From the NCBI RefSeq assembly GCF_018860825.1, contig NZ_JAHKPZ010000034.1, forward strand, positions 124,001 through 188,000: a DNA stretch of 64,000 nucleotides, in the 5' to 3' direction. The notes below the pieces were generated by a model. The model was not told the DNA's origin and ran no database searches. It saw nothing but the letters and a program-made list of their open reading frames with translations. Position 1 is the first letter of the stretch; each line of letters begins with the position of its first letter. The position numbers and the translations under genes were made by a program. Below are positions 32,615 to 63,454 of this stretch, piece after piece. This stretch comes from Lacinutrix sp. C3R15. GTDB taxonomy: Bacteria; Bacteroidota; Bacteroidia; Flavobacteriales; Flavobacteriaceae.

Positions 32615-32658
32615 CAAATGTACATTAGAAAAACACCGAAGTCAGTAACATAAGTTAC
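32615..32658 (-). promoter_or_regulatory. Crp/Fnr-type promoter module before the RND operon
   Basis: Perfect dyad GTAAC-ATAA-GTTAC at 32645-32658; -7 element TACATTTG at 32622-32615 on the minus strand, 22 bp from the dyad. Start codon of the TolC-like gene at 32595. Confidence 0.75.
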
Positions 32659-32726
32659 CAAGAGAAATGACATAAAAACAAAGTGGTATTGTAATTATAC
32701 TAGTATCACTTACTTTTGCATGCTAT

Positions 32727-33725
32727 ATGGATTCATTAACGCAAATAGTATTAGGAGCAGCTGTAGGAGAAGTTGTTTTAGGTAAAAAAATAGGAAACAA
32801 AGCCATGCTTTATGGTGCTGTTGCTGGAACCATTCCTGATTTTGATGTATTTGCTTCTTATTTTACAGATACGGTTTCTGCACTTTCTATACACAGAGGT
32901 TTTACACATTCTATTGTGTTTTCTGTACTTTTTGCTCCCATTTTAGCTTGGTTAGTTACTAGGTATGAAACCTATAAAAATTTTAAAGACTGGTCGTGGC
33001 TATTCTTTTGGGCATTTGTAACGCATCCTATTTTAGATGCACACACTACTTGGGGAACGCAATTGTTTTGGCCTTTAGATTTACGGTTAGCATTTAAAAC
33101 CATTTTTGTTATAGACCCTTTATACACTGTACCTTTTTTAGTCTTTTTAATTTTGGCTATGCTACAAAAACGCACGGCTAACAAACGTCATTTTTATAAC
33201 AAGTTAGGTTTAATAATAAGTACCTCTTATTTAGTATTAACGTTTCTTTTAAAAGGCATTGCTTACCGTAAATTTGAATCTGCTTTAGCCAATCAAAATA
33301 TTGCTTATTTAGATATGGACACCAGACCTTCTCCTTTAAACACCATACTTTGGAGCGCTAATGTAGAAACGGAAGAAGCATATTTATTAGGGAATTATTC
33401 TTTTTTTGATACACAAGCAATATCTTTTGAAACTTACCCAAAACAGCATGAGTTATTAGGTAATTTAATTACAAACGAAAAAGTACAACGTATGATTGCT
33501 ATTTCTGAAGGTTGGTATACTATTACTAAAAAAGAAGGTATTCTATATTTTAACGATTTACGTTTTGGGTTATTAAGTTTAACACCAAAATCTAACAACT
33601 TTGTTTTTAAATATAGAATAGATGTTGATGCTTCTGGTAAACTTACATTTACTGAAGAACAAAAAAACAATAGAGATGGTAAAAAATTGATAAACGAATT
33701 GTGGCAACGTGTAAAGGGAAATTAA
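32727..33725 (+). CDS. YdjM-like membrane-bound metal-dependent hydrolase
   Basis: A 332-residue membrane protein of the YdjM/LexA-binding, membrane-bound metal-dependent hydrolase family. It begins MDSLTQIVLGAAVGEVVLGKKIGNKAMLYGA and contains GTIPDFDVF (34-42), HRGFTHSIVFS (about 56-66) and HPILDAHTTWGTQLFWP, giving the His/Asp set expected to bind metal. True substrate unknown. A TACTTTTG -7 element at 32711-32718 fits its own promoter, divergent from the RND operon. Confidence 0.9.
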   Translation: MDSLTQIVLGAAVGEVVLGKKIGNKAMLYGAVAGTIPDFDVFASYFTDTVSALSIHRGFTHSIVFSVLFAPILAWLVTRYETYKNFKDWSWLFFWAFVTHPILDAHTTWGTQLFWPLDLRLAFKTIFVIDPLYTVPFLVFLILAMLQKRTANKRHFYNKLGLIISTSYLVLTFLLKGIAYRKFESALANQNIAYLDMDTRPSPLNTILWSANVETEEAYLLGNYSFFDTQAISFETYPKQHELLGNLITNEKVQRMIAISEGWYTITKKEGILYFNDLRFGLLSLTPKSNNFVFKYRIDVDASGKLTFTEEQKNNRDGKKLINELWQRVKGN

Positions 33726-33740
33726 AAAATAATTTTAACG

Positions 33741-33775
33741 AAAAAGCATCTATAAATAATTATAAATGCTTTTTA
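33741..33775. terminator. Bidirectional terminator after the YdjM-like gene
   Basis: AAAAAGCAT and ATGCTTTTT flank an AT-rich inner stem (TATAA/TTATA). It serves the YdjM-like gene on the plus strand and the degenerate small-protein transcript on the minus strand. The hairpin at 36281-36314 is a homologous copy. Confidence 0.8.
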
Positions 33776-33804
33776 CCAATCAACCAAAAAAACTGATAAC
33801 CACA

Positions 33805-33936
33805 TCAGTTAACCTTTAGAGAGCCTCCATATCTTACAACAAGCATTATTTTTATACTTAAATAAAGAAACTTGAAAAAAGAAAATATAGGATGCCTCTT
33901 TTTAAACCTTTAATATTTTATAATTCTTTGTGTCAT
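33805..33936 (-). pseudogene. Degenerate copy of a ~45-residue small protein gene
   Basis: Read from ATG at 33936: MTQRIIKY, an in-frame TAA at codon 9, then 34 further codons that align with the intact gene at 36344-36481, including a shared core FFKFLYLSIKIMLVV, and the same final Asn-TGA. A 6-nt gap relative to the intact copy keeps the frame. The ORF is broken in this copy, though a 44-bp Crp/Fnr-type promoter module lies just upstream (34008-34051). Of the 450 bp between the YdjM-like gene and pncB, this relic, the terminator and the promoter explain most. The transcript may survive as an RNA. Confidence 0.65.
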
Positions 33937-33951
33937 TACAAACGTTTGTAA
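33936..33951. promoter_or_regulatory. 16-bp perfect palindrome
   Basis: TTACAAACGTTTGTAA, CG-centred as many LacI-type operators are. It overlaps the start codon of the degenerate small gene and lies about 225 bp before pncB. Protein partner unknown. Confidence 0.4.
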
Positions 33952-34007
33952 ATATTACAAAACGCTTATATTTTTATTAAAGCCCAACAAAAAATTACTT
34001 TATATCA

Positions 34008-34051
34008 CAAAAATAAGGCAACATATAATAACCTTCAGTAACTAATGTTAC
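34008..34051 (-). promoter_or_regulatory. Crp/Fnr-type promoter module reading toward the degenerate small gene
   Basis: Perfect dyad GTAAC-TAAT-GTTAC at 34038-34051; on the minus strand the -7 element TATTTTTG is at 34015-34008, exactly 22 bp away. On the plus strand no -7 match exists at that spacing, so the module is assigned to the small-gene transcript rather than pncB. Confidence 0.65.
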
Positions 34052-34174
34052 GCAAGAAAAAAATTATAATGAAATCTAACTTATAAATAAACAAATACAA
34101 TATTTCTTACTACTTCGTTCTTGGTGAGGCAAAATATCCTTAAATTTATTCCCTTAATTTTTTTTAAAATTCTC

Positions 34175-36245: not shown

Positions 36246-36280
36246 TTAACTTTAAAATACAGCTAATTCTATTTTAATAA

Positions 36281-36314
36281 AAAAAGCACTTATAATAACT
36301 TATAAATGCTTTTT
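36281..36314. terminator. Bidirectional terminator between pncA and a small gene
   Basis: AAAAAGCA and TGCTTTTT close a TATAA/TTATA inner stem; related in sequence to the hairpin at 33741-33775, as part of a duplicated block. Confidence 0.8.
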
Positions 36315-36343
36315 CACTAACCATGCAAAAACAACCTAATAAA

Positions 36344-36481
36344 TCAGTTTGTTTTTCTAGTACCTCCATGTCCTCCTGCTACTACAAGCATTATTTTTAT
36401 ACTTAAATAAATAAACTTGAAAAACTGAAGAATAGGATTCATCATTTTAAATCTTTTATATTTTGATATTCTTTGTGTCAT
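36344..36481 (-). CDS. Small basic protein of 45 residues, new family
   Basis: ATG at 36481, TGA at 36346-36344. A Lys/Arg-rich N-terminus (MTQRISKYKRFKMMNP), an amphipathic/hydrophobic core (FFKFIYLSIKIMLVV, about 20-34) and a Gly/His tail (AGGHGGTRKTN). The in-frame relic at 33805-33936 shares start, core, stop and a codon-multiple gap, which supports coding. It lies 70 bp downstream of the SQR-like gene on the same strand and so may be co-transcribed from that gene's Crp/Fnr-type promoter. Probably membrane-associated; function unknown. Together with the terminator it fills the 305-bp gap between pncA and the SQR-like gene. Confidence 0.6.
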   Translation of the reverse strand: MTQRISKYKRFKMMNPILQFFKFIYLSIKIMLVVAGGHGGTRKTN

Positions 36482-36550: not shown

Positions 36551-38008
36551 TTACTCGGGAATCAGCCACCAAAAAGGTTTCATTTTTGCTTTATAAATAA
36601 AAGCATAATGCAGAGCTAATTTTAACCAATGACCTGCTAAACCAATATCACCAAAGGTTTTACCTAAATGTCTACCTTGAGTTTTTGGATATTTTTCATA
36701 ATCTGGAACAATGGGATACGTAGTAATACTTACACCACTTCCTGTAGTCATTCCAAAACCTGCAGACGCAATACAAGCTGCTCCCATATTACCTAAAGAA
36801 CCTTTATGGTTTAAGGATTCTTTTCCGCTTTTAATGCTATCTATTATATTATCTGCAACCAATTTTGCCGTAATACCAGAAGGCATTCCTGTACGTGGTG
36901 GCGCAGGAGAGATATCTGTACCATTTTTGCTTTTTCTTGGTTTAGAAATAGCATGAGGAGGCGCAAAGGCTATTCCTGGTGCAAATATGTTTTTATAACT
37001 TGGGTTTTGATAGGTTTCTGGCCAATCTTTAACAGACCATTCTTCATAAGGTTTTGGTGTGTAATCTGCATCTACTAGCATAAAACCTTTAAAAAGTTTT
37101 TCTGTAATATCTTTTTCATTTTTATCATAGGCTTTAAAACCGTGTCCTGAAAAAGAAGGTATTAACATGGCGAAATCAAAAGTTTCTGATTTGTGTTCAC
37201 CATCTAAGTTTTCATAATACGCTACACCATCTTCAATTTTATTTACTCCAGCACCAAGAATCCATTTAATGCCTCTATCTTCAAAAATCATTTCAATCAT
37301 TTCATGAGATTTCATAGATAAACTTCCGTAGCTTAAAAGCATACCATCCATACCAAAATCACCTAATTGGTATTCGTTAGAAATCCAAATAACTTCTGCC
37401 ATATCACGCACATTATGGTTGCGTAATTCTTGTTCTACATTTAAAATATACTCAAAAGCAGCACCTTGACAGGTAGATTTTGCGTGTCCTGTACCAATTA
37501 AAATTTTAGCTTTTTTTCCCGCTTTCATTTGCTTAATTAAAGCACTCAACCCTTGCCATGCATGATCTGCATGTGTATACGTACAAACAGAATATGTTTT
37601 ATTTTCACCAGGAATTAAGCCTTCAGTTGCTTCAAAATTTAATTTTGGACCTGTAGCATTAATTAAATAATCATAGGTTACTTTTTCTTGTTTTCCTTTA
37701 TGTTCTCCTGTTACATATTCTGACAAAACATATGGTTTTTCTTCTGTTTTATCTCCTTCAGGAAAAAAGGAAATTGCTTTGGCTTGTTTAAACTCTATTC
37801 CTTTCTTTTTATACAAAGGAGCTAATGGAAATAAGATTTTTTTGGATTTCATTCTACCAATTCCTACCCAAATATTTGAAGGAATCCATTGATAATTACT
37901 ATTAGGAGATACCACAACAACTTCGTGTTTTTTTTGCAGTTTTCTACGTAAATGAGTTGCCGCAACGTGACCAGAAATTCCTGCTCCTAGAATGACTATT
38001 TTAGACAT
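36551..38008 (-). CDS. Sulfide:quinone oxidoreductase-like flavoprotein
   Basis: A 485-residue FAD-dependent oxidoreductase. N-terminal dinucleotide fold KIVILGAGISGHVAATHLRR (3-22), ATG motif at YLINATGPKLNF, and C-terminal FAPGIAFAPP. Three Cys sit where SQR enzymes carry theirs: Cys142 (YSVCTYTH), Cys180 (STCQGAAFEY) and Cys412 (GAACIASAG). It would oxidise sulfide to sulfane sulfur and pass electrons to the quinone pool at the inner membrane, where cytochrome bd encoded nearby could finish the chain. A near-perfect Crp/Fnr-type site lies 46 bp before the start. SQR is the best call; other NDH-2-like flavoproteins remain possible. Confidence 0.8.
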   Translation of the reverse strand: MSKIVILGAGISGHVAATHLRRKLQKKHEVVVVSPNSNYQWIPSNIWVGIGRMKSKKILFPLAPLYKKKGIEFKQAKAISFFPEGDKTEEKPYVLSEYVTGEHKGKQEKVTYDYLINATGPKLNFEATEGLIPGENKTYSVCTYTHADHAWQGLSALIKQMKAGKKAKILIGTGHAKSTCQGAAFEYILNVEQELRNHNVRDMAEVIWISNEYQLGDFGMDGMLLSYGSLSMKSHEMIEMIFEDRGIKWILGAGVNKIEDGVAYYENLDGEHKSETFDFAMLIPSFSGHGFKAYDKNEKDITEKLFKGFMLVDADYTPKPYEEWSVKDWPETYQNPSYKNIFAPGIAFAPPHAISKPRKSKNGTDISPAPPRTGMPSGITAKLVADNIIDSIKSGKESLNHKGSLGNMGAACIASAGFGMTTGSGVSITTYPIVPDYEKYPKTQGRHLGKTFGDIGLAGHWLKLALHYAFIYKAKMKPFWWLIPE

Positions 38009-38024: not shown

Positions 38025-38067
38025 TAAAGATAAATTCAACTAAAACACTATACAGTGACTTTTGTTA
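38025..38067 (-). promoter_or_regulatory. Crp/Fnr-type promoter module before the SQR-like gene
   Basis: Dyad GTGAC-TTTT-GTTAC (one mismatch) at 38054-38067; -7 element TATCTTTA at 38032-38025 on the minus strand, 21 bp from the dyad (one base shorter than the other modules). Confidence 0.55.
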
Positions 38068-38077
38068 CACAAGTATT

Positions 38078-45995: not shown

Positions 45996-47072
45996 TTAAT
46001 GCTCACCATAACCAACATCATCCATTTTTCCTTTAAAAACACGATATTGAATTACCATATAAGCAGCAACTAAAACCACTGCTATTGCAAACCAATATAC
46101 ACCAACCGATAGGCCATATTCATGAGCTGCTACATTGTATAAGGTTAAATCTGGATTGACATTATTTGTAGAGGGCAATACTTTTGGAAAAATAGAAGCT
46201 ACGGTTGATGTTAAACCACCAAATAAAAACAAAGAGGAAAACAAAAACCCCATTCCGTGTTTTTGAAATGATTTTACTTTAAATAACCCAAATAATCCTG
46301 TAAATGTAATTATAGGAAAAATCCATAACCAAGGTGTATCTAAAAAGTTATGAAACGGTTTTGGCTCAATAATATGCCAAACCAGCAATGAAATAATTAC
46401 TAAAGCTAAAAGCACAAAATTAAGATTAAAAACGACACGTTTTAATTTTTCATTTAAGTCCGAATTGGTTTTAAATATAATCCAATTGGCACCATGAATG
46501 GTTAAAGCGACTACTCCAACAATTCCTAATAAAACCGTAAACCAATCTAGAATTCCTAATTGTTCTGCTTGCGGACTAAAAGTTGGATTCCAAAGCGGTA
46601 AGAAAAAATAATGCGCCTCATGTGTAGACACACCATTAACCACACTTCCTAAATTAACTCCTCTTACAACATTACCTAAAGCCACACCAAAAAAGAGTGC
46701 TAAAAGTAAACTTGAAATACCAAAAGCTTTATCCCAAATAGATTGCCATATAGTATTGTGAATTTGCCCTCTTAACTCTAAGCCTATAGCTCTAAAAATA
46801 AGCAGCCAAAGAATCATTATTAAGGGTAAGTAAAAGCCGCTAAAAGAAGAAGCATATAAAGTAGGAAAAGCAAAAAACAAAACACCTCCTGCTGCAATTA
46901 GCCAAACTTCATTAGCATCCCAAAAAGGACCAATGGCATTGGTGATTGCTTTTTTATCTTTTTCTTTTTTAGCAAAGAATAAATGAATAATTCCTGCTCC
47001 AAAATCATAACCATCTAAAATTACATAAACAGCTAACATTGTCATTAAAACGATATACCAAAATAATTCCAT
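45996..47072 (-). CDS. cydB: Cytochrome bd ubiquinol oxidase subunit II
   Basis: A 358-residue integral membrane protein with about nine TM segments; diagnostic stretches are LDGYDFGAGIIHLFFAKK (about 19-36), IGPFWDANEVWLIAAGGVLFFAFP (about 47-70) and, near the end, LSVGVYWFAIAVVLVAAYMVIQY. It partners CydA (2 bp upstream) in a terminal oxidase that reduces O2 with quinol and is comparatively resistant to sulfide and NO. Confidence 0.95.
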   Translation of the reverse strand: MELFWYIVLMTMLAVYVILDGYDFGAGIIHLFFAKKEKDKKAITNAIGPFWDANEVWLIAAGGVLFFAFPTLYASSFSGFYLPLIMILWLLIFRAIGLELRGQIHNTIWQSIWDKAFGISSLLLALFFGVALGNVVRGVNLGSVVNGVSTHEAHYFFLPLWNPTFSPQAEQLGILDWFTVLLGIVGVVALTIHGANWIIFKTNSDLNEKLKRVVFNLNFVLLALVIISLLVWHIIEPKPFHNFLDTPWLWIFPIITFTGLFGLFKVKSFQKHGMGFLFSSLFLFGGLTSTVASIFPKVLPSTNNVNPDLTLYNVAAHEYGLSVGVYWFAIAVVLVAAYMVIQYRVFKGKMDDVGYGEH

Positions 47073-47074: not shown

Positions 47075-48406
47075 TTAGTGTTGATTTAGTTGTGGGCCTT
47101 TATTAATAATTTTTCCTGCTAACATTAAAAATAGTAAGCCAAGAAGTAAGTATAAACCTATAAAACCTAATAAGGTAAATAAAGTATTACCAGAAGATAC
47201 TGTTGGCGATGCGCCATCTGCAGTACGCAATAGGTTATAAACAAGCCAAGGCTGTCTTCCTAATTCTGCAGTGTACCAACCTGTTGTATTAGCAATATAA
47301 GGAAATGGTAACATAAACATGAGCGACCATAAAATCCATTTTGTTTTAAATAGTTTTTTTCTAAACAACTGTACTGCAGCAATTAACATTAACCCAATAA
47401 AAATGGTTCCTAAACCAACCATAATATGGTAAGAGTAATACAAACCAGGAACATTTGTTGGGTGTACACTTTCATCAAATTCATTTAAACCTTTTATTTG
47501 CGCATCCCATTCTTGATAGGTTAAAAAACTTAAAATATTAGGAACAGCTATTTTATTATCTAGTTTTTTCTCTAACATATTAGGCTGCCCAATCAATACA
47601 ATTTCTGATCCACCCTCTTCGGTTTCAAAAATCCCTTCCATAGCTGCAAATGTTGCAGGCTGGTGTTTTACTACGTTTTTAGCTGTCCAGTCTCCTGTAG
47701 GAAAAGCTACTAACAAACTAGAAATTAAACCAAAAACAACACCTGTTTTTACAAATAGTTTACCAAATTCATTATGCTTATTATTTAGTAAATAAAAGGC
47801 TCCAATAGCAGCAACCACAAAGGAAGAAGTAACAATAGAAGCAGCTTGATTGTGCAAATAAGAAGGTAACAACCAAGGGTTAGAAAATAAAGCGCCAAAG
47901 TTATTTAATACAAATCTCCCGTTCTCTATAATCTCATAACCTACAGGATGTTGCATCCAAGAATGGGTTGCTATAATTAAATAACCACTTGCCCAGGAAC
48001 CTAAAAAAACAAGGAAACCAGTGAGAAAATGCAGTTTATGACCCATTAGTTTTTCGCCAAATAAAAAGAGTCCTAAAAAGGACGATTCTAAAAAGAAGGA
48101 AAACATACCTTCCATGGCTAAAGTCTGGCCAATAATACCTCCTGTAAGCTCTGAAAACTTAGCCCAATTGGTACCAAACTGAAACTCCATTGGTATTCCT
48201 GTAACCACACCCATAGCAAAGTTAAGCGCAAAAATCTTCATCCAAAATTTTGCAGCATCGTTATATTTTTCCAATTTAGAAAATAGAAACTTACCTTTAA
48301 AATAGACTATCATTAATGATAATCCCATGGTTAATTGCGGAAATAAATAGTGAAATGTAATAGTAAATGCAAACTGCATTCTATCGTAAAAGAGCATATC
48401 CTCCAT
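47075..48406 (-). CDS. cydA: Cytochrome bd ubiquinol oxidase subunit I
   Basis: A 443-residue CydA: His19 (FAFTITFHYLFPQL) is the high-spin haem b ligand, GIPMEFQFGTNW and AMEGMFSFFLESSFLGLFLFGE carry conserved acidic residues, and AELGRQPWLVYNLLRT is the GRQPW signature. The Q-loop is short, so this is the short-loop class. A Crp/Fnr-type promoter module lies 37 bp upstream of its start, tying the oxidase to the shared regulon. Confidence 0.95.
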   Translation of the reverse strand: MEDMLFYDRMQFAFTITFHYLFPQLTMGLSLMIVYFKGKFLFSKLEKYNDAAKFWMKIFALNFAMGVVTGIPMEFQFGTNWAKFSELTGGIIGQTLAMEGMFSFFLESSFLGLFLFGEKLMGHKLHFLTGFLVFLGSWASGYLIIATHSWMQHPVGYEIIENGRFVLNNFGALFSNPWLLPSYLHNQAASIVTSSFVVAAIGAFYLLNNKHNEFGKLFVKTGVVFGLISSLLVAFPTGDWTAKNVVKHQPATFAAMEGIFETEEGGSEIVLIGQPNMLEKKLDNKIAVPNILSFLTYQEWDAQIKGLNEFDESVHPTNVPGLYYSYHIMVGLGTIFIGLMLIAAVQLFRKKLFKTKWILWSLMFMLPFPYIANTTGWYTAELGRQPWLVYNLLRTADGASPTVSSGNTLFTLLGFIGLYLLLGLLFLMLAGKIINKGPQLNQH

Positions 48407-48442: not shown

Positions 48443-48486
48443 TAAAGATATTTTAAATCCTTTTTATACTATGTAACATAAGTAAC
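48443..48486 (-). promoter_or_regulatory. Crp/Fnr-type promoter module of cydAB
   Basis: Dyad GTAAC-ATAA-GTAAC (one mismatch) at 48473-48486 and -7 element TATCTTTA at 48450-48443, 22 bp apart, reading toward cydA. Confidence 0.7.
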
Positions 48487-48560: not shown

Positions 48561-48604
48561 GTAACATTAGTTACACTTAAAACCTATATTTTATTATATA
48601 ATTG
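48561..48604 (+). promoter_or_regulatory. Crp/Fnr-type promoter module of the SoxB-like operon
   Basis: Perfect dyad GTAAC-ATTA-GTTAC at 48561-48574 and TATAATTG at 48597-48604 (one mismatch to TAnnTTTG), 22 bp apart, reading toward the small secreted protein gene. Confidence 0.65.
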
Positions 48605-48975: not shown

Positions 48976-49079
48976 TTTAATGTTTTAATTCATGCTATCG
49001 TTTGTGATAGCAGCAACCTGAAAAACATCTCACAAAGATAGTTTTCACATATTTAATACTCATTTTATACTATTTAATA

Positions 49080-49484
49080 ATGGCGACAAAAATTTTAATA
49101 AGCCGTCGTTCCATACAATTGTTACGCATATTGGTGAGTGGCATATTTCTAATAGCTGGTTTTAACCACTTGCTTCATATAGAAAAAACTACGCAACGAA
49201 TAGAACAAGCCAGTTTTAAAGGTATCGCTTACTTTTTTGGCGAACCAAAATGGCTAATTATACTTTCTGGTATTGTAATGCTTATCGCTGGATTTCTATT
49301 CCTTATTGGTTACAAAACCAAATGGGCAGCAATTGTATTGGTGGCAGTTTTAGTACCTATTACCTTAACCATTCAAGTTGGTCAAATTACCACACTTGGG
49401 CCTTTATTTAAAAACATAGCAATTTTAGGTGGACTTCTATTTTTTATACTGAACGACACCAACAACCTCTTAAAACAAAATTAA
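49080..49484 (+). CDS. DoxX-like membrane protein
   Basis: A 134-residue inner-membrane protein with four hydrophobic segments and DoxX features: RILVSGIFLIAGFNHLLH (about 16-33), FGEPKWLIILSGIVMLIAGFLFLIGYKTKWAAIVL. DoxX-type proteins occur in thiosulfate:quinone oxidoreductases and other redox complexes. Followed after 2 bp by the DsrE-like gene, so it belongs to a sulfur-linked unit. Confidence 0.82.
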   Translation: MATKILISRRSIQLLRILVSGIFLIAGFNHLLHIEKTTQRIEQASFKGIAYFFGEPKWLIILSGIVMLIAGFLFLIGYKTKWAAIVLVAVLVPITLTIQVGQITTLGPLFKNIAILGGLLFFILNDTNNLLKQN

Positions 49485-49486
49485 AA

Positions 49487-49912
49487 ATGAAAAACATATT
49501 TTATACTTCAATACTTTTAGTACTTACATTATTTGTTAGTACTACCATTCAAGCACAAAACTCACAAAATCATACAAAAAATGATTACGTAGTAGTAACA
49601 AAAAAAGTAGCACAATTACAACCTATTATCTTAACTGCTGAAGCGCTAAAAGCCGAAGAAGGAAAAGATTTTGGTGATTTTGAAGTTATTATTTGCGGTC
49701 AAAATATTGGAGATATAACAGATCCTGAGAAAATTAATAAATTCATTGAAAAAGCAGAAAAAGCTGGAGTAACTATAGTTGCTTGCGGATTTTCACTTGA
49801 TAAATTTAAAATAGAAAGAGCATCTGTTCCTAAAGCAATTAAAATTGTTGAAAACGGAATTTTATACAACTTCCAACTTCAAAAACAAGATTATAAAAAC
49901 TTAAGCCTTTAA
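49487..49912 (+). CDS. Exported DsrE-like protein
   Basis: A 141-residue protein with a signal peptide (cleavage near TIQAQN, about residue 23) and a DsrE/DsrF-like fold. Two Cys lie where sulfur-carrier members have theirs: FEVIICGQNIGD (about 70) and TIVACGFSLDKF (about 105). It may bind persulfide in the periplasm and hand it to the neighbouring SoxB-like enzyme. Overlap-free but tight (2 bp) spacing on both sides. Confidence 0.82.
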   Translation: MKNIFYTSILLVLTLFVSTTIQAQNSQNHTKNDYVVVTKKVAQLQPIILTAEALKAEEGKDFGDFEVIICGQNIGDITDPEKINKFIEKAEKAGVTIVACGFSLDKFKIERASVPKAIKIVENGILYNFQLQKQDYKNLSL

Positions 49913-49914
49913 TT

Positions 49915-51576
49915 ATGACAACCAATAAAAAATTAATTTTTAAAACTGTTTTTGTTTTAGGAATTTTAGCTTCAATCTTTTCTTGTAATTCGGAAAAGAA
50001 AAATCAAAAAGCAGATATTAGTACAACCAAAAAAGACACTTTAAGTATAAGCATTTTACAAACTGCAGATATTCACGGACAGTTAGACACACATCCCGAA
50101 TTATTTTGGGAAGACGAAAAAATTGTCTTTAAAAATCGTGGTGGTCTTGCCAATATTAAAACCCTTTTTGATAAAGAACGTGAAGCAAACCCAAACAAAA
50201 CCATTATTGTAGATGGAGGCGATTTAATACAAGGAAGTGGTTATGCTGCTTTATCTGAAGGTAAAGTAATGCAAGATGTTGTTAAAAACATGGGCTACGA
50301 TGTTATTATTCCTGGTAACTGGGAAGTGGTTTATGGCAAGGACATGATGCTAGAAATTATGAAAGGTTACGAAACCAACGTTATAGTTCAAAATATGTTT
50401 AATGATGATGATGAAAAACCATTATTTCCTGCATATGCTGTAAAAGAAATCGATGGCATCCGTTTAGGTTTTGTGGGCATTAATGATCCAGACGTTCCTG
50501 TTAGACAAAACCCTATTTTTAGTAAAGGTATTGGTTTTAGTGGTTTGGATGAAAAACTTAAAAAAATGGTAGATGATATCAAGATTAAAGAAAAAATAGA
50601 TGTCCTTTTCTTGGTAACACATATTGGTATTTTTAAACAAGTAGAATTGGCTAATAATCCTATTGCAGAACATGTCGATTATATATTAGGTAACGATACG
50701 CATGAACGTGTACGTGAAATGATTCAAGGAAAATATGCTAAAGTTACAGAACCAGGTGCCTTTGGTTCTTTTGTTGGTAAGCTAACCTTGCATTTTGTAG
50801 ATGGCAAATTAGTAGGAGATGATTATAAACTTATTGATGTAGATCCTGAAGTATATCCTGCAGACAAAACGATTCAGGATCTTATAGATACCGAAAAAGC
50901 ACCTTACAAAGAAAATTTAGAAACCATTATTGGATATACCAACACACCAATTTACAGATACTTAACGGTTGAAAACCCAATGGATAATATGATTACAGAT
51001 GCTGCACGTTGGAAAACTGGTGTAGATATTTCTATATCTAATGGTTTTCGTTTTGGAAACCCAATAGTTCCTGCAGATGGTAAACCAGCTCCAATTACAA
51101 GAGCTAATTTATGGAATTTACTTCCTGTAAATGAGCCTGTAAAAACAGGAAAAGCAACTGGTAAACAAATTAAAGAGTGGTTAGAAAAAGAAATGCATAA
51201 TGCCTTTTCGCAAGACCCAACCGAACGTTTTGGAGGTTGGTTGGTACGTTTTTCTGGTATGAAAGTAGATTTTAATAGTCAGAAGGAAAGAGGAAAAAGA
51301 ATTAAATCTATAATTGTGAAAGGAAAAGAAATGCAAGACGATGCATATTATACCATTTCTGCATGTGTGCGTCCTGGTGATCCAATTGACAATTTATGTA
51401 GAATGGCAAATGTTAAGGATGTTGAAGTAAAAGATTACACCATACATGAAGCTGTTGAAGAATACTTAAAAAAGAATTCGCCTGTATCGCCAACTTTAGA
51501 AGGAAGAGCATACTGTGATTATCTTGGTGAGTATTCTTTTTCAACAGTACCTCAAACGGATTATGAATTTCATTAA
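49915..51576 (+). CDS. SoxB/5'-nucleotidase-like metallophosphoesterase lipoprotein
   Basis: A 553-residue lipoprotein (Cys24 in SIFSC) with a calcineurin-like domain (about 44-270) and a 5'-nucleotidase C-terminal domain (about 310-530). Metal motifs: ADIHG (Asp52, His54), GGDLIQG (Asp103), VTHIG and GNDTHE. The usual GNHE motif reads GNWE (134-137), with Trp in place of the catalytic His; SoxB thiosulfohydrolases likewise have Trp there (GHWE). The NGFRFG and LHNVF-like (MHNAF) stretches also recall SoxB. In a unit with DsrE and DoxX, a thiosulfonate/sulfur ester hydrolase is more likely than a nucleotidase. A terminator follows. Confidence 0.75.
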   Translation: MTTNKKLIFKTVFVLGILASIFSCNSEKKNQKADISTTKKDTLSISILQTADIHGQLDTHPELFWEDEKIVFKNRGGLANIKTLFDKEREANPNKTIIVDGGDLIQGSGYAALSEGKVMQDVVKNMGYDVIIPGNWEVVYGKDMMLEIMKGYETNVIVQNMFNDDDEKPLFPAYAVKEIDGIRLGFVGINDPDVPVRQNPIFSKGIGFSGLDEKLKKMVDDIKIKEKIDVLFLVTHIGIFKQVELANNPIAEHVDYILGNDTHERVREMIQGKYAKVTEPGAFGSFVGKLTLHFVDGKLVGDDYKLIDVDPEVYPADKTIQDLIDTEKAPYKENLETIIGYTNTPIYRYLTVENPMDNMITDAARWKTGVDISISNGFRFGNPIVPADGKPAPITRANLWNLLPVNEPVKTGKATGKQIKEWLEKEMHNAFSQDPTERFGGWLVRFSGMKVDFNSQKERGKRIKSIIVKGKEMQDDAYYTISACVRPGDPIDNLCRMANVKDVEVKDYTIHEAVEEYLKKNSPVSPTLEGRAYCDYLGEYSFSTVPQTDYEFH

Positions 51577-54679: not shown

Positions 54680-55402
54680 TTACTTTTTAAGAATTGCGTC
54701 TAAAACTTCCTCTTTACCTAGTTTTTTGGTACAGAAGAACCAATCTTTACAATCTAATTCTTCAGTAGATGTCATACGTTCTTCAGCCACACCACAAGAT
54801 CCTGCTGGAGATACAATAACATCATCACCAGGATTCCAATCTGCAGGAGTTGCAACGTTAAACTTATCAGAAGTTTGCATTGCTATTAAGGCTCTGTATA
54901 ACTCATCAAAATTACGACCTAAACTTAATGGGTAATAAATAATAGCTCTAACAGTTTCATTTGGATCTACAAAAAAGACAGCTCTAACCGCTTGAGTTTT
55001 ACTTTCTCCTGGCTGAATCATTCCGTATTTTTTAGCCACTTCCATAGAAATATCTTCAATTAAAGGAAATTTAACCTCTATGTTTTTCATGCCGTTAAAC
55101 TCCATTTTATCTTTAATAGTTCTAAGCCAAGCAATATGACTATATAAACCATCAATAGATAAACCTATAAGGCTACAGTTAGCTTTTTCAAATTTTTCTT
55201 CTAAATGTGCAAAGGTCATAAACTCTGATGTACACACTGGTGTAAAATCTGCAGGATGACTAAATAGTATAGACCATTTTCCTTTATAATCTGAAGGGTA
55301 ATTAATTTCTCCTTGTGTTGTTACTGCTTTAAATTGAGGTGCTTTATCTCCAATTCTTGGCATTGCTGATGTTTCTTCTTGTGTTGTTTCTAATGTATTC
55401 AT
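54680..55402 (-). CDS. Peroxiredoxin of the Prx6/archaeal type
   Basis: Start set at ATG 55402 (240 residues). Peroxidatic Cys57 lies in HPADFTPVCTSEF. The C-terminal CKDWFFC motif (Cys218, Cys224) matches the extra Cys pair of archaeal thioredoxin peroxidases, so it may act as a 2-Cys enzyme despite the Prx6 fold. Reduces hydrogen peroxide or organic and possibly persulfide-related peroxides in the cytoplasm. A weak Crp/Fnr-type module precedes it with correct 44-bp spacing. Divergent from the copper-receptor unit. Confidence 0.92.
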   Translation of the reverse strand: MNTLETTQEETSAMPRIGDKAPQFKAVTTQGEINYPSDYKGKWSILFSHPADFTPVCTSEFMTFAHLEEKFEKANCSLIGLSIDGLYSHIAWLRTIKDKMEFNGMKNIEVKFPLIEDISMEVAKKYGMIQPGESKTQAVRAVFFVDPNETVRAIIYYPLSLGRNFDELYRALIAMQTSDKFNVATPADWNPGDDVIVSPAGSCGVAEERMTSTEELDCKDWFFCTKKLGKEEVLDAILKK

Positions 55403-55434
55403 AATATGTCGTGTTTTATTAATTATCAATAATG

Positions 55435-55478
55435 TAAAATTACCTTATAAGTACCTGATAATGTGTAACAAATATCAC
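55435..55478 (-). promoter_or_regulatory. Weak Crp/Fnr-type promoter module before the peroxiredoxin gene
   Basis: GTAAC-AAAT-ATCAC (two mismatches in one arm) at 55465-55478 and -7 element TAATTTTA at 55442-55435, with the same 22-bp gap as other modules. Confidence 0.45.
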
Positions 55479-58260: not shown

Positions 58261-58413
58261 TTATCTTTCTTTAGGCTCATCTTTTTTATTTCTGTCACTT
58301 GTAGCCATAAACTTTATTAAAAAACCAACAAGTGCTAGACAAACCAATCCAAAAATAGCAATTATTATAACTCCGTTATTCCAATTAGATAATGCAATGC
58401 TTTGAGATATCAT
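58261..58413 (-). CDS. 50-residue single-span membrane protein
   Basis: ATG at 58413, TAA at 58263-58261. MISQSIALSNWNNG, one transmembrane helix (VIIIAIFGLVCLALVGFLIKF, about 15-35) and a charged tail (MATSDRNKKDEPKER). Clean hydrophobic/charged division and a plausible start support coding, but no family was recognised. It lies downstream of the candidate small RNA and its terminator, so it is made from readthrough or from a weak promoter near 58430. Confidence 0.55.
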   Translation of the reverse strand: MISQSIALSNWNNGVIIIAIFGLVCLALVGFLIKFMATSDRNKKDEPKER

Positions 58414-58490
58414 AAAATTATTTTTTAGTATTTAACAATGTAAAAATACTATTAATCATTAATTATAAATATGACATTTGTCAGGAAATA

Positions 58491-58523
58491 AAAAGCATCT
58501 TAAGGGGTTAAGATGCTTTTTTT
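58491..58523 (-). terminator. Strong intrinsic terminator
   Basis: AAAAGCATCTTAA-GGGG-TTAAGATGCTTTT with T-tract on the minus strand; 109 bp past the TPMT-like gene stop and about 40 nt after the predicted small RNA start. Confidence 0.9.
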
Positions 58524-58562
58524 GCTATTAATCAATCATTAAGTTGCAAGAACAACTTCTAT
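58491..58562 (-). ncRNA. Candidate ~70-nt small RNA of the Crp/Fnr-type regulon
   Basis: A perfect promoter module (58567-58610) predicts a start near 58562. The following ~70 nt hold a 5' hairpin (AAGTTG-6 nt-CAACTT, 58541-58558), a short linker and an intrinsic terminator (AAGCATCTTAA / TTAAGATGCTT, T7), and no ORF. That is the usual layout of a bacterial trans-acting small RNA. The same terminator may also end the upstream methyltransferase transcript. Confidence 0.5.
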
Positions 58563-58566: not shown

Positions 58567-58610
58567 CAAATGTAAGACATTAGTTAAAGGAGGTAAGTAA
58601 CATAAGTTAC
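58567..58610 (-). promoter_or_regulatory. Crp/Fnr-type promoter module of the candidate small RNA
   Basis: Perfect dyad GTAAC-ATAA-GTTAC at 58597-58610 and -7 element TACATTTG at 58574-58567; both elements are identical to those of the RND operon module. Confidence 0.7.
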
Positions 58611-58631: not shown

Positions 58632-59225
58632 TTAGTGGTTTAATTTTTTTTTCTGCATAATAAAAAACAACTCTTTTCCTTGTCTTGCTACCACGGAGTT
58701 TTTAGCTTCTTCCATTATTTTAATATCAAAATAAGGATTAAAATGTTGTAAATATTCTTTTTTACATCCTCCAAAAGGTGGTTTTGTATCCTTTAAAGGA
58801 ACATTAAAAAGTAAACCTACAACTTTGCCTTTTGCATGCAAGATTTCAAAAAGTTTGGCAGCGTAAGAAAGTCTTAAACTAGGATGTATTGCACAAAAAA
58901 AAGTTTGTTCTATAATTACATCGAAACGCATATCTACATCAAAAAAATTATTTTGAATAAGATGTGATGAAGGAAATGATGGTACTCTAGTTTTAATATT
59001 TTTAAGTGCTGTTTTAGATAAATCTACTACATACACATTATTAAACCCTTTATGATGAAGGTACTCTGCCTCATAACTATTACCACCTCCTGGAATTAAT
59101 ATTCTTAGATTTTTATTGGTTAATTGATCAAAATAGTTTTTTAAAGGAGGAGATATTTTTCCTAAGTCCCAACCAATATCCAATGTTTTATATCTATTAT
59201 CCCAAAAACCTTCGGTCAAATCCAT
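58632..59225 (-). CDS. TPMT-family SAM methyltransferase
   Basis: Start chosen at ATG 59225, which shares its A with the thioredoxin stop codon (TAATG), rather than the longer open frame. 197 residues with thiopurine methyltransferase family features: EGFWDNRYKTLDIGWDLGKISPPLKNYF (5-32), RILIPGGGNSYEAEYLHHKGF (about 41-61), VYVVDLSKTAL and the later FCAIHPSLR. TPMT-like enzymes methylate thiols, selenium or tellurium compounds. Last gene of the HMA/cytochrome/thioredoxin operon, so thiol or H2S methylation is plausible. Confidence 0.88.
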   Translation of the reverse strand: MDLTEGFWDNRYKTLDIGWDLGKISPPLKNYFDQLTNKNLRILIPGGGNSYEAEYLHHKGFNNVYVVDLSKTALKNIKTRVPSFPSSHLIQNNFFDVDMRFDVIIEQTFFCAIHPSLRLSYAAKLFEILHAKGKVVGLLFNVPLKDTKPPFGGCKKEYLQHFNPYFDIKIMEEAKNSVVARQGKELFFIMQKKKLNH

Positions 59226-59521
59226 TAATAAGGCGCTGTAATTACGTTCATTAATTCTTCTTTTTGAAGCATACCAGATTGTCTCCATACCTGCTTTCCA
59301 TTTTTAAACAAAAGCATTGTAGGCACACCTCTTACTTGATATTTTGCTGCAAGAGCCTGATTTTTATCTACATCAATTTTAATAATAGATACTCTATCTT
59401 TTAAAGTATCTTTAAGATCCTTTAAAATAGGACTCATCATTTTACATGGTCCACACCACTCTGCATAAAAATCTACTAATACAGGAGTGTCTTTATTTAT
59501 TAATTCTGAAAATTTGCTCAT
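59225..59521 (-). CDS. Thioredoxin
   Basis: A 98-residue thioredoxin with the active-site WCGPC (Cys23, Cys26), cis-Pro in VRGVPTMLLF, and no signal peptide, so cytoplasmic. It starts 12 bp after the cytochrome gene and its stop overlaps the methyltransferase start. Its place in a sulfur-related operon suggests reduction of persulfides or disulfides formed under sulfide stress. Confidence 0.95.
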   Translation of the reverse strand: MSKFSELINKDTPVLVDFYAEWCGPCKMMSPILKDLKDTLKDRVSIIKIDVDKNQALAAKYQVRGVPTMLLFKNGKQVWRQSGMLQKEELMNVITAPY

Positions 59522-59533: not shown

Positions 59534-60526
59534 TTATTTATCAAAAGTTATACTCCAAATACCTCTAACCTCATTTATAGTATAACCTGTAGCTTTGTCT
59601 TGAGGATATAAACTAGTAAGTTTACTTAATGTAGGTTTCGTTATATCTTGTTCTGGTTTGCCATGACATTGTAAACACATGGCATTTGTTGTAATAGGGT
59701 AATATACATGTACTTTATTGTCTAGCTGATCTACAATAGGTTTTGGCTCCATATTGTTTTTTATATCTTTTTTAAAAGAATTAATATATGCTAATTCTTT
59801 ATTATTTGCTTTATTATTTTGGTTTCTAGGTTTATCTGAAACACGTTTAATAGTAGCTTGATGTACTACAGACATACTATCTGTTAAAGGATATGCTTTT
59901 TCGTTACAAAATGCTAAAGCTTCTAAAGTTCCTTTTTTTTGAATGGTTCCCATTAAGTTTTTACCTAAAACAGCTTTAGTAGATAATGCATATTTTAAAC
60001 CACGTTCTCCATAAGGTAAAGTATCAAAATTTGTTTGTGCTTGCTGCATGTTCATACCTTTACCTTTTCCTTGTCCCTTACCTTTTCCTCTTTCTTGATT
60101 AAAATGGTTTTCAAACCATTCTGGTTGCTCTATATCAAAATCAAACATATAATCTGAAATTTGAAAAATGGTCTCCTCAGGAAATGCTTGTTTTGGCATA
60201 ACCCCAAAACGTTTTACTGCGCCAAACATTTTTGCATCTTCTGCATTTGGGTTTTTAATCCAAGATTGCATTGCAGCTATAAATTCTTCTTTTGAGGTGT
60301 TTTCGTTAATATAATGTTTTTTTATAGCAACCATTGGCGGACCAATTCTATCTTCCTGGCTAGCAGTTGGACTATGACAAGTATAGCAATTGGTTTCCAT
60401 TAATTTTTTTCCAGGGTGCTTTTTGGCCTCCATTTTTTTTTCAAAAGCTGTATATTCTTTGCTTTTAGAATTATTACAGCTAAAAATTAAAATAGATAAA
60501 AAAGTGAGTACTATTGATTTTTTCAT
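59534..60526 (-). CDS. Di-haem cytochrome c lipoprotein with DUF3365 domain
   Basis: A 330-residue lipoprotein (lipobox FSC, Cys17). The N-terminal cytochrome c domain binds haem at CYTCH (47-51, Met axial ligand plausibly in GVMPKQAF); a Gly/Lys-rich linker (GKGKGQGKGKGM, about 146-157) leads to a DUF3365 (Tll0287-like) haem-sensor-type domain with CLQCH (284-288). Periplasmic redox or gas sensing is likely, probably in electron transfer rather than signalling as no output domain exists. Between HMA and thioredoxin genes, 11-12 bp spacing. Confidence 0.88.
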   Translation of the reverse strand: MKKSIVLTFLSILIFSCNNSKSKEYTAFEKKMEAKKHPGKKLMETNCYTCHSPTASQEDRIGPPMVAIKKHYINENTSKEEFIAAMQSWIKNPNAEDAKMFGAVKRFGVMPKQAFPEETIFQISDYMFDFDIEQPEWFENHFNQERGKGKGQGKGKGMNMQQAQTNFDTLPYGERGLKYALSTKAVLGKNLMGTIQKKGTLEALAFCNEKAYPLTDSMSVVHQATIKRVSDKPRNQNNKANNKELAYINSFKKDIKNNMEPKPIVDQLDNKVHVYYPITTNAMCLQCHGKPEQDITKPTLSKLTSLYPQDKATGYTINEVRGIWSITFDK

Positions 60527-60537
60527 TTTATGATATT

Positions 60538-60807
60538 TTATGTTGAAAGCTTACCTGTTGCACAACTTACAAAAGATTTGGCTTTTGAGGTTAATGAATT
60601 AGCATCATCAATAGAAGGATAACCTAAAGTTTTAAGCTTATCTTTTACAGCTAAAGCATCTGCCTCATTAATATAATTAAAAAATACTTTACTATCATTT
60701 ACATCTATAGTAATGTTTGATATGTTTTCAATTTCTGAAAGTTTAGTAGTAATAGTATGTGCACAACCACCACATTTTAAATTTTGTACTATTATTGAAG
60801 TTTTCAT
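60538..60807 (-). CDS. Heavy-metal-associated (HMA) domain protein
   Basis: An 89-residue small metallochaperone-like protein: SIIVQNLKCGGCAHTITTKLSEI with CGGC at 12-15 for Cu(I)-type binding, then the ferredoxin-like fold, and an extra CATGKLST tail. First gene of the operon HMA-cytochrome-thioredoxin-TPMT. Its long leader carries a conserved hairpin (60830-60846) and a Crp/Fnr-type module is at 60945-60988. Confidence 0.9.
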   Translation of the reverse strand: MKTSIIVQNLKCGGCAHTITTKLSEIENISNITIDVNDSKVFFNYINEADALAVKDKLKTLGYPSIDDANSLTSKAKSFVSCATGKLST

Positions 60808-60829
60808 TTTTGTTATAATTTTATATTAT

Positions 60830-60846: not shown

Positions 60847-60944
60847 CTTAAGACTAAGATTTATTTTTGCTAATTTTATGCCTTAGCAAAAAAACAACAT
60901 AAATCACTGTAAATCTACTCTTTATAACGTGTTTTATATTTCTA

Positions 60945-60988
60945 TAAAGTTAATAAATTATAAAACCATAGCAGGTAACTTTTGTTAC
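60945..60988 (-). promoter_or_regulatory. Crp/Fnr-type promoter module of the HMA operon
   Basis: Perfect dyad GTAAC-TTTT-GTTAC at 60975-60988; -7 element TAACTTTA at 60952-60945, 22 bp apart, leaving a ~130-nt leader. Confidence 0.65.
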
Positions 60989-61000
60989 ATATTATATACA

Positions 61001-61037
61001 AAAAAGCGCATACTACAAGAGTGTAATATGCGCTTTT
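61001..61037 (-). terminator. Terminator after the CstB-like gene (paralogue 2)
   Basis: AAAAGCGCATA / TATGCGCTTTT stem with a 14-nt loop and T-run, 23 bp after the stop. Confidence 0.85.
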
Positions 61038-61059
61038 AACGAACTAAAAAAACTAAGAA

Positions 61060-62475
61060 TTATTTTAATGTGGTAGGACAAACAAAATCTGTTCTTGGTA
61101 AGGATGTTTTTTTAATGGCATCATAACCACCAGCAACATCTATTAAGTTGTGTATACCTCTACTTTTTAAAATAGAAGCTGCAATTACAGATCTATAACC
61201 ACCTGCACAATGTACATAAAAAGGTTTATCTTCTGGAAATTCACTTAAATGGTTATTAATATTATCTAAGGCAGTGTGTTTTGCTCCATCTACATGCTCT
61301 GCTGTGAACTCTCCATCTTTTCTAACATCAAAAACAACATCTTTGTTATCTTCATAACGCTTTTCAAATTCTTCTGCAGAAATAGATGTTAAGGTATCAT
61401 ATTCCATTCCTGCTTTTTTCCAAGCTTCAAAACTACCTTCTAAGTAACCAATAACATTATCAAAACCAACACGAGATAAACGTGTAATTACTTCTTCTTC
61501 TCTACCTTTTGGAGCTACTAATAAAATAGGCTGACTTACATCTGCAATTAAAGCACCAACCCATGGAGCAAAACCACCATCTATTCCTATAAAAATAGAA
61601 CGCGGAATATGTCCTTTTACAAATTCGGTTTGATGACGCACATCTAACACTATAGCTTCTGTGTCATTAGCTACAGCTTCAAAAGCTTTTGGTGCTAATG
61701 GTTTTTGAGATTTTGTCATTACTTTATCAAAGCTTTCATAACCTTGAATATTCATCATTACATTTTGCGGAAAATATGCTGGAGGCTCTGACAAACCATC
61801 TAATAGTTCGGCTATAAATTCGGCTTTAGTCATATCTGCACGTAATGCATAATTTACTTCTTTTTGATGCCCTAAAGTATCTGTAGTTTCTTTACTCATG
61901 TTTTTACCACAAGCAGAACCTGCACCATGATTAGGGTACACAATTAAATCATCACTTAAAGGCATAATTTTATTACGAAGAGAATCATATAAATAGCCTG
62001 CTAATTTTTCTTGTGTTAAATCTGAAACAATTTTTTGTGCTAAATCAGGACGACCAACATCACCAATAAACAATGTATCTCCTGTAACAATACCATGCTC
62101 TTTTTCGTTTTCATCTATCAACAAATAGGTAGTACTTTCCATAGTATGCCCTGGAGTATGGATGACTTTTATTTTGTAATCACCAACTTCAAATACTTGT
62201 CCGTCTTCAGCAATTATAGCATCATAAGAAGGTTTTGCTGTTGGGCCAAACACTATTTGTGCTCCCGATTTTTCTTTTAAATCTAAATGACCTGAAACAA
62301 AATCTGCATGAAAATGTGTTTCAAATATGTATTTTATTTTAGCATCATCTAATTTTGCTCTATTAATATAAGGCTGTACTTCTCTTAATGGGTCAATAAT
62401 TGCTGCTTCACCATTACTTTCAATATAATAAGCCGCATGTGCTAAACAACCTGTATAAATTTGCTCTATTTTCAT
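61060..62475 (-). CDS. CstB-like persulfide dioxygenase/rhodanese fusion, paralogue 2
   Basis: A 471-residue protein with the same three-domain order as the gene at 53151: metallo-beta-lactamase domain with ETHFHADFVSGH (His54, His56, Asp58) and VTGDTLFIGDVGRPDL; a middle rhodanese-like domain without active Cys (about 265-360); and a C-terminal rhodanese with Cys423 (YVHCAGGYRS). Extra tail with CPTTLK. Predicted to oxidise persulfides to sulfite/thiosulfate. tauE lies upstream, as in cst-like operons. Crp/Fnr-type module at 62550-62593, leader hairpin at 62498. Confidence 0.9.
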   Translation of the reverse strand: MKIEQIYTGCLAHAAYYIESNGEAAIIDPLREVQPYINRAKLDDAKIKYIFETHFHADFVSGHLDLKEKSGAQIVFGPTAKPSYDAIIAEDGQVFEVGDYKIKVIHTPGHTMESTTYLLIDENEKEHGIVTGDTLFIGDVGRPDLAQKIVSDLTQEKLAGYLYDSLRNKIMPLSDDLIVYPNHGAGSACGKNMSKETTDTLGHQKEVNYALRADMTKAEFIAELLDGLSEPPAYFPQNVMMNIQGYESFDKVMTKSQKPLAPKAFEAVANDTEAIVLDVRHQTEFVKGHIPRSIFIGIDGGFAPWVGALIADVSQPILLVAPKGREEEVITRLSRVGFDNVIGYLEGSFEAWKKAGMEYDTLTSISAEEFEKRYEDNKDVVFDVRKDGEFTAEHVDGAKHTALDNINNHLSEFPEDKPFYVHCAGGYRSVIAASILKSRGIHNLIDVAGGYDAIKKTSLPRTDFVCPTTLK

Positions 62476-62497
62476 TTTCTAATTCTTTTTAAAATTT

Positions 62498-62515
62498 GGT
62501 AAAATTGTGTTCACC
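62498..62515 (-). promoter_or_regulatory. Leader hairpin GGTGAA/TTTACC, 23 bp before the CstB-like start
   Basis: On the plus strand GGTAAAATTGTGTTCACC, the counterpart of the HMA leader hairpin (60830-60846), with the same distance to the start codon and a loop one base longer. Confidence 0.45.
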
Positions 62516-62549
62516 TTTCGGTTTAGGACATTTTATCTATTTTATTCTT

Positions 62550-62593
62550 CAAATTTACTAATGTTTTTAAGTTTTTACAGCAACATTAGTTAC
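62550..62593 (-). promoter_or_regulatory. Crp/Fnr-type promoter module of the CstB-like gene
   Basis: GCAAC-ATTA-GTTAC (one mismatch) at 62580-62593 and -7 element TAAATTTG at 62557-62550, gap 22 bp. Confidence 0.65.
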
Positions 62594-62597
62594 ATAA

Positions 62598-63392
62598 TTA
62601 AAAAACTAACTCTTTTAATACAATGTAAACAGACATGGCTAATACAAACCAGCCAAAACTCTTTTTTAATTTTTTATTGGATATAAACTTAGAAAAGTAA
62701 CCACCTACTAAAATGCCTATAATTGTTAAAAAAGAAAAGGTCAGTAAAAAATGCCATTCAATATCTAATATTTGTACATCACCTAAAAAACCTATTAAGG
62801 AATTTAATGCTATAATTATTAATGAAGTACCTACAGCTTTTTTCATATCTAAACCTGCCCAAAGGACTAATGCTGGCACATATAAAAAACCTCCTCCTGC
62901 ACCAATTAACCCTGTAATAACACCTATAACCACACCTTGACTAAAAGTTTTGTAATAGGGTTGTGCACCTTTACTTGTTTGATTTTTAGATTTAGATTTA
63001 ATCATGGAAATAGCTGCTAGCAACATGATTATGGCAAAAAATATCATGATTGCCATTTCTTTAGTTAAAGAAAAGCCTCCAATAGAAAAAAGTGTTTCAG
63101 GAATTGCAGGAACAAGAAATCTTCTTGAAACATAAACTGCAATAAAAGATGGAAATGAAAATGCTAATCCAGTTTTAAAGTCAACTAATCCTTTTTGATG
63201 TTTTTGAATAACACCAACCAATGAGGATGAGCCAACAACAAATAAGGAATAAGCAGTAGCTATAACGGGGTTATAACTTAAAAAATATACTAATAAGGGT
63301 ACGGTTAAAATAGAGCCTCCTCCTCCTATTAATCCTAATATGGCTCCAATTAAAAAAGCACCTAAATAAGTTATTATTTGTTGTAAGTCCAT
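62598..63392 (-). CDS. TauE/SafE-family sulfite/sulfonate exporter
   Basis: A 264-residue membrane protein with about eight hydrophobic segments: FLIGAILGLIGGGGSILTVPLLVYFL (about 13-38), the second half-repeat GVVIGVITGLIGAGGGFLYVPALVLWAG (about 153-180). TauE/SafE exporters expel sulfite, sulfoacetate or thiosulfate; within the cst-type gene group it would remove the products of persulfide oxidation. Crp/Fnr-type promoter module 19 bp before its start; the regulator gene ends 66 bp upstream of its start. Confidence 0.92.
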   Translation of the reverse strand: MDLQQIITYLGAFLIGAILGLIGGGGSILTVPLLVYFLSYNPVIATAYSLFVVGSSSLVGVIQKHQKGLVDFKTGLAFSFPSFIAVYVSRRFLVPAIPETLFSIGGFSLTKEMAIMIFFAIIMLLAAISMIKSKSKNQTSKGAQPYYKTFSQGVVIGVITGLIGAGGGFLYVPALVLWAGLDMKKAVGTSLIIIALNSLIGFLGDVQILDIEWHFLLTFSFLTIIGILVGGYFSKFISNKKLKKSFGWFVLAMSVYIVLKELVF

Positions 63393-63410
63393 TTAAATAA
63401 TATTAAAAGC

Positions 63411-63454
63411 CAAATTTAGTTAGCATATTTAGCTTTTATAGTAACAAAGGTTAC
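63411..63454 (-). promoter_or_regulatory. Crp/Fnr-type promoter module of tauE
   Basis: Perfect dyad GTAAC-AAAG-GTTAC at 63441-63454 and perfect -7 element TAAATTTG at 63418-63411, gap 22 bp. Confidence 0.75.

Follow-up and report, generated by a model that had tools for sequence, protein, structure and literature searches.

A phase-locked promoter module and a candidate Crp/Fnr-family activator of reactive-sulfur genes in Lacinutrix and other Flavobacteriaceae

Does a 44-bp sequence that recurs ahead of sulfide and persulfide genes in Lacinutrix sp. C3R15 act as a common promoter module, and, if so, which protein reads it and in answer to which signal? The question is raised by a stretch of 64,000 nucleotides (contig NZ_JAHKPZ010000034.1, positions 124,001 to 188,000 of the forward strand; the window), in which the dyad GTAAC-N4-GTTAC, with zero to two mismatches, is followed after 22 bp by the 8-mer TAnnTTTG, with zero or one mismatch, at ten places between 32.6 and 63.5 kb (Table 1). 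All ten were read in the sequence. An initial annotation had described this phasing for nine of them and a 21-bp spacer for the site at 38025; the nine stand as described, and the sequence at 38025 likewise gives 22 bp. We think it likely that the module is the class II activator promoter through which a Crp/Fnr-family regulator, encoded at the same locus, controls genes for reactive sulfur.

The constant phasing is indeed hard to obtain by chance, as had been claimed. At the limits given above, the 32-64 kb part of the window holds exactly those ten sites; 300 dinucleotide shuffles give 0.38 on average and never more than 2, and the other 39 spacers between 6 and 45 bp yield at most 3 sites (mean 0.59). 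An alternative count with a total of at most two mismatches gives 10 against 0.057, a set of ten from which 55435 is missing and in which the dyad at 63441 counts in its reverse reading. Two further sites fall within the first 32 kb (8672 and 24344), the latter inside an open reading frame (ORF). Over the 3.61-Mb genome there are 10 full modules with no more than one mismatch, and one occurrence of the reversed control. The exact dyad is found 13 times, compared to 5 for the control; six of the 13 lie within the 31-kb stretch, and two, which we take as chance occurrences, within long ORFs.

At class II CRP/FNR promoters the activator is classically centred at -41.5. In a study of mapped transcription starts in Flavobacterium psychrophilum (PMC9723704), TAnnTTTG is the sigma-A -7 box and extends from -12 to -5. 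The dyad is therefore predicted to cover -48 to -35 with its centre at -41.5, which upholds the class II geometry proposed earlier, the box placement being taken from another flavobacterium. The 8-mer is thus a housekeeping promoter element and not part of the regulator's site, and the 22-bp spacer would be fixed because class II contact demands that distance. The module shares with known class II promoters the position of its palindrome, the family of its putative activator and, as in FNR sites, half-sites 4 bp apart, but differs in its half-site, GTAAC instead of TTGAT or TGTGA, in its Bacteroidota -7 box and in the sulfur gene set that follows.

The same arrangement is conserved in relatives. 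A scan of a genome collection returned at least 584 confirmed stretches, of which the best 80 were kept, mostly from Flavobacteriaceae (Olleya, Psychroserpens, Polaribacter, Zobellia, Aquimarina). In these best 80 loci the exact dyad has 390 oriented occurrences, distributed over 78 loci; the reversed control has 8, in 4 of the loci. An exact box follows the exact dyad at 22 bp 100 times, and at no other spacer from 8 to 39 bp more than 3 times. When one mismatch is allowed over dyad and box, 195 modules are found in 76 of the loci, and bases outside the selection are favoured as well (T at -49 in 85%, G at -33 in 55%).

Targets were called as the longest ATG-initiated ORF starting within 300 bp downstream and classified by the best match among the window proteins. 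The 195 near-regulator modules precede a persulfide dioxygenase-like protein (PDO) of MBL-rhodanese type 67 times, TauE 48 times, YeeE 10 times, the regulator itself 9 times, a TolC-like protein 8 times and cytochrome c 6 times. Smaller numbers stand before HMA (4), SQR-like (4), peroxiredoxin (2), second MBL-rhodanese (2), cydA (1), thioredoxin (1) and 120-aa (1) proteins. Another 25 lead to ORFs without assignment, several of which are short and may not be genes, and 7 to no ORF; five of the 25 were searched in Pfam and comprise a sulfate permease, an NrfD/4Fe-4S protein, a Pyr_redox_2 flavoprotein, a YgaP-type membrane protein and a protein of 141 aa without a match. PDO modules occur in 52 of the 60 loci that have a PDO relative (a count blind to the PDO paralog), and TauE modules in 48 of 58.

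Sulfide and persulfide genes also lie behind modules far from the regulator. Among the modules listed for the family genomes we chose by hand 20 remote ones, situated on a contig other than that of the regulator or at a distance of over 100 kb, although draft contigs need not be distant. These precede TolC-like proteins (4, with 72-86% identity to the window protein), MBL-rhodanese (3), Thioredoxin_9 (3) and rhodanese (2) proteins, relatives of the 120-aa (2) and the 141-aa DsrE-like (1) proteins, TauE (1) and YgaP-TM (1), so that 17 of the 20 stand before families of the window or before rhodanese, thioredoxin or YgaP domains; the others face a fatty-acid hydroxylase, an aldehyde dehydrogenase and no ORF. 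Elsewhere in the C3R15 genome, a SCO1-SenC gene has an exact module, and the genes for a rhodanese and a 129-aa protein have modules with one mismatch. Modules with two mismatches precede an ArsR-type helix-turn-helix gene, a fatty-acid hydroxylase gene and the gene of an FNR-like protein, while a thioredoxin-like gene has an exact dyad with a poor box and a DUF983 gene an exact dyad with the box at 21 bp. The hydroxylase site, weak on its own, recurs with an exact module in another genome (L235). The other two-mismatch sites (L025, L029, L033, L036, L037) had no clear target where inspected.

The candidate activator is encoded directly upstream of TauE. Its ORF, cut at 63956, matches PF13545 HTH_Crp_2 with 31 bits (cut-off 27) and PF00027 cNMP_binding with 30 bits (cut-off 27.5), and these domains, together with profile matches in the PDB, place it in the Crp/Fnr superfamily. 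The genome has one further HTH_Crp_2 match, the FNR-like protein (C35:491183-491857). A gene next to that of the FNR-like protein resembles, by eye, a ccoI-type ATPase. All 81 regulators compared carry the three cysteines C77, C83 and C84; equally invariant are T180, S181, R182, S186 and R187 of the recognition segment, TSRVV(I/V)SR, which has V where FNR has E209. FNR and DNR-type gas sensors share the superfamily and the helix-turn-helix, but the regulators have no conserved N-terminal cysteines like those of the 4Fe-4S oxygen sensor FNR: a cysteine precedes C77 in 3 of the 81 sequences, each time at a different position, and within the 30-sequence set A1 only in L059 and L063. The protein also falls far below the cut-offs of the NCBIfam models for Fnr (19.7 bits, cut-off 228) and CRP (59 bits, cut-off 266). 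In an ungapped hand alignment, the cAMP ligands of CRP (E72, R82 and S83) correspond to M79, K89 and S90, so that two of the three would be replaced and one kept. The PDB profile search returned 3dv8 as the best match (E 7e-21), a solved Crp/Fnr protein that has the C-x5-C pair in common with the regulator but not its third cysteine; with E 5e-6, DNR (3dkw) counts as a weak relative. A regulator with 69% identity is encoded on a 3-kb contig titled Candidatus Rokubacteria (OMJU01000023.1, L109), which is probably a misbinned flavobacterium contig.

Across genomes, module and regulator occur together. Among 120 genomes of the family, a close ortholog (E 1e-59 or better) is present in 95; in 8 others there are distant relatives only, and the remaining 17 give no match at E 1e-20. 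The exact module is present in 80 of the 120 and its reversed control in none; it is found in 78 of the 95 genomes with a close ortholog but in 2 of the 25 without (Fisher p 7e-12, with kinship and genome size ignored), and in 2 of 13 when genomes without the ortholog are restricted to those of at least 2.5 Mb. This co-occurrence and the presence of the gene at the locus support the Crp/Fnr-type regulon that the initial annotation had proposed. Among 296 genomes of the phylum, the exact module occurs in 26, whose labels all give the same family, order or class, and the control is absent throughout. The regulator alignment has matches at E 1e-40 in 102, other classes included.

We propose that a dimer of the regulator would bind TGTAAC-N4-GTTAC, contact the sigma-A RNA polymerase positioned at TAnnTTTG and switch on genes whose products would oxidise, trap or move sulfide, persulfide and polysulfide, or repair the damage these cause. 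The signal would most likely be reactive sulfur; C77 may sense it together with C83/C84, in the segment with which CRP binds cAMP. Sensing is probably thiol-based, a thiol switch for persulfide or polysulfide fits the gene set, and a di- to tetrasulfide bridge among C77 and C83/C84 has, in our estimate, an even chance of being the sensing step. As a whole, the picture of an activator, widespread in Flavobacteriaceae and present in other families of the class, that senses persulfide or polysulfide by a C-x5-C-C thiol switch in a former cAMP pocket, and commands a class II regulon including a small RNA that arises in the 3' region of an operon of this regulon, is put forward tentatively. The regulon and its architecture are well supported by the computation, and what stands, a Crp/Fnr regulon for reactive sulfur that is phase-locked and extends across the family, is larger than had been claimed; binding, activation and trigger are what we infer from it.

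A number of results run counter to this proposal, and they are given here with the alternatives on which they bear. Not all targets are sulfur genes: cytochrome bd, fatty-acid hydroxylase, aldehyde dehydrogenase and SCO1 are exceptions that would allow a redox or gas signal. The same regulator and class II module might thus answer to nitric oxide, oxygen or general redox state, as DNR and FNR do, with the sulfur genes as one branch of the response to low oxygen or nitrosative stress. The modules before cytochrome bd, SCO1-SenC, cytochrome c and FNR-like genes, and the weak relationship to DNR, would agree with such a signal. We regard it as unlikely, given that PDO, TauE and YeeE lead the assigned targets across genera, that remote sites precede rhodanese, DsrE-like and thioredoxin genes, and that the N-terminal cysteine cluster is not conserved. 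Nor were nitric oxide or nitrite reductases, or the hcp, nor and nir genes expected of HcpR, DNR or NnrR-type regulators, noticed among the classified targets, though no search aimed at these genes was made.

A slightly less likely alternative is that the dyad is a repressor operator, from which a protein covering -48 to -35 and blocking sigma-A would leave on sulfur modification, as with CstR and SqrR. CstR and SqrR/BigR act on genes of the SQR, persulfide dioxygenase, rhodanese and TauE types. There is overlap between the dyad and the -33 region, which favours an operator. For repression, however, an exact spacer would be unnecessary, while the 22 bp hardly vary over the best 80 loci, and the predicted centre is the classic one of class II activators. 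CstR and SqrR, known persulfide sensors, are described as repressors in a review (PMC9774590), which also favours an operator; there, CstR (CsoR family) and SqrR/BigR (ArsR family) sense through two cysteines. They belong to other protein families than the regulator, which appears to be an activator.

Counter to a cysteine-based switch, L160 lacks C83 and C84, L166 lacks C84, and three paralogs, including the one in L174, lack both, and similar sites lie near the genes in L160, L166 and L174. The cysteines that might form a bridge are present in all 81 aligned regulators, but owing to these losses the thiol switch stays at the level of what we infer. The L174 paralog (L174:4416) has TSREVISR instead of TSRVVISR, and GTAACATTTGTCAC, 22 bp and TACATTTG follow right after its gene; of three distant-paralog loci inspected, only this one has a site close to the gene. 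This kind of site may therefore predate the C-x5-CC clade.

As the 80 loci were picked by the regulator, they are uninformative on which protein binds, and 17 of the 95 ortholog-bearing genomes lack an exact module. Near-modules surround the regulator in 11 of the 17, seven with 22 bp (L156, L159, L163, L164, L166, L168, L170; for example GTAACAATTATTAC) and four with 21 bp only (L155, L160, L162, L167); within the limits used, none was found around the regulators of L157, L158, L161, L165, L169 and L171. It is also conceivable, if quite improbable, that the FNR-like protein binds the dyad and the neighbouring regulator something else. The former is the sole other HTH_Crp_2 protein of the genome, and its own gene is preceded by a two-mismatch module (L035, G000:C35:491900-491943), a hint that the control of sulfur and that of oxygen may be linked. 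The presence of the exact module is independent of the FNR-like protein, however (50 of 71 genomes with it, 30 of 49 without; p 0.33): genomes with the regulator but no FNR-like protein have the module in 29 of 33 cases, those with the FNR-like protein but no regulator in 1 of 9. Since the module follows the regulator, we rejected the FNR-like protein as the main binder. Finally, a chance alignment of AT-rich promoter pieces could be argued from the genome-wide scan suggested by the initial annotation, in which the excess seen at one mismatch is gone at three (43+43 vs 50+37), and from the dyad alone, whose excess in the window at up to two mismatches is marginal (43 vs 30, a count reached by 3 of 100 shuffles), but its probability is close to nil and it was rejected in view of the shuffles, the spacer profile, the reversed controls and the conservation across genomes.

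Bacteroidota are common in sulfidic marine settings. If the module is indeed a promoter served by the neighbouring Crp/Fnr protein as an activator, that activator would do the job performed elsewhere by CsoR- and ArsR-family repressors and represent a new solution, and the grammar of dyad, 22 bp and -7 box would predict targets and give functions to unknown genes in many genera. In the open-access literature that was searched (subscription papers and preprints lying outside this scope, and the spelling 'Crp/Fnr' possibly being missed) and in excerpts of the review cited above (PMC9774590) we found no Crp/Fnr regulator of reactive sulfur and no GTAAC-N4-GTTAC motif in Bacteroidota. Provisionally, the control system seems to be undescribed.

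Table 1. Modules, regulator gene and candidate small RNA (window coordinates; mismatches given as dyad/box)
Feature	Position	Strand	Mismatches	Adjoining genes and remarks
Module, exact	32615..32658	-	0/0	before OEP (31288-32595), HlyD (30203-31282), RND (26801-29995), 101 aa, two Sulf_transp YeeE-type genes (25192-26162)
Module, exact	34008..34051	-	0/0	facing degenerate small-ORF copy (33732-33936)
Module, spacer 22	38025..38068	-	1/1	before SQR-like flavoprotein (36551-38008)
Module	48443..48486	-	1/1	before cytochrome bd, cydA (47075-48406) and cydB (45996-47072)
Module	48561..48604	+	0/1	before 48613-51576: 120 aa, DoxX, 141 aa weakly DsrE-like, SoxB/5'-nucleotidase-like
Module, weakest	55435..55478	-	2/1	before peroxiredoxin (54680-55429)
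Candidate module-driven small RNA, ~75 nt	58488..58562	-		5' hairpin, conserved linker, intrinsic terminator; same place in 4/7 genus genomes
Module, exact	58567..58610	-	0/0	no coding gene ahead of strong terminator
Module	60945..60988	-	0/1	before HMA (60538-60807), cytochrome c (59534-60526), thioredoxin (59225-59521), TPMT-like (58632-59288)
Module	62550..62593	-	1/0	before PDO gene (61060-62475)
Module, exact	63411..63454	-	0/0	before TauE (62598-63392); same arrangement in relatives
Crp/Fnr-family regulator gene, 210 aa	63459..64000	-		continues past window end to 64091 (L014:3459-4091); Pfam, full ORF, orthologs

The genes behind the ten modules form the coherent set that had been claimed, except that 34008 and 58567 precede no gene of the earlier list. 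The PDO protein has its best PDB matches in the MBL-rhodanese type chains 3tp9 and 3r2u, and the SQR-like protein matches sulfide-quinone reductases across its first 290 residues (E 1e-33). For the 553-aa SoxB-like protein, identity as SoxB was rejected (260 bits, cut-off 550).

Module 34008 probably is the relic of a duplication and fires into a decayed duplicate: the conserved DNA downstream of it corresponds, in degenerate form, to a 45-aa ORF that lies behind the SQR-like gene. This makes a relic likelier than a small RNA, and a role as small-RNA promoter was dropped. The ORF itself (MTQRISKY...GGHGGTRKTN; 36271-36481, minus strand) is unannotated; it is intact at this position and nearly identical in three genomes of the same genus (L178, L179, L181).

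Module 58567, to judge from the sequence, probably makes a short RNA, as the predicted transcript reaches a strong terminator after ~75 nt. The element is located in the 3' region of the HMA-cytochrome-thioredoxin-TPMT operon. Among the four genus genomes that have it, C3R15 included, the module is exact in C3R15 (G000) and G120, and the dyad has one mismatch in G121 and two in G124; the terminator stem is broken in G124, and the 5' hairpin of G121 does not fold alike. A model of the small RNA (R1) scored strongly (80-103 bits) only on its four source copies and found no new one, the next match having 43 bits, and Rfam at gathering scores had no match in the 32-64 kb part of the window. A 50-aa ORF (58261-58413) was rejected as the target of 58567, a terminator lying in between. 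This membrane-type ORF, on the minus strand, is present in 6 of the 7 genus genomes and, weakly, in 9 other genera.

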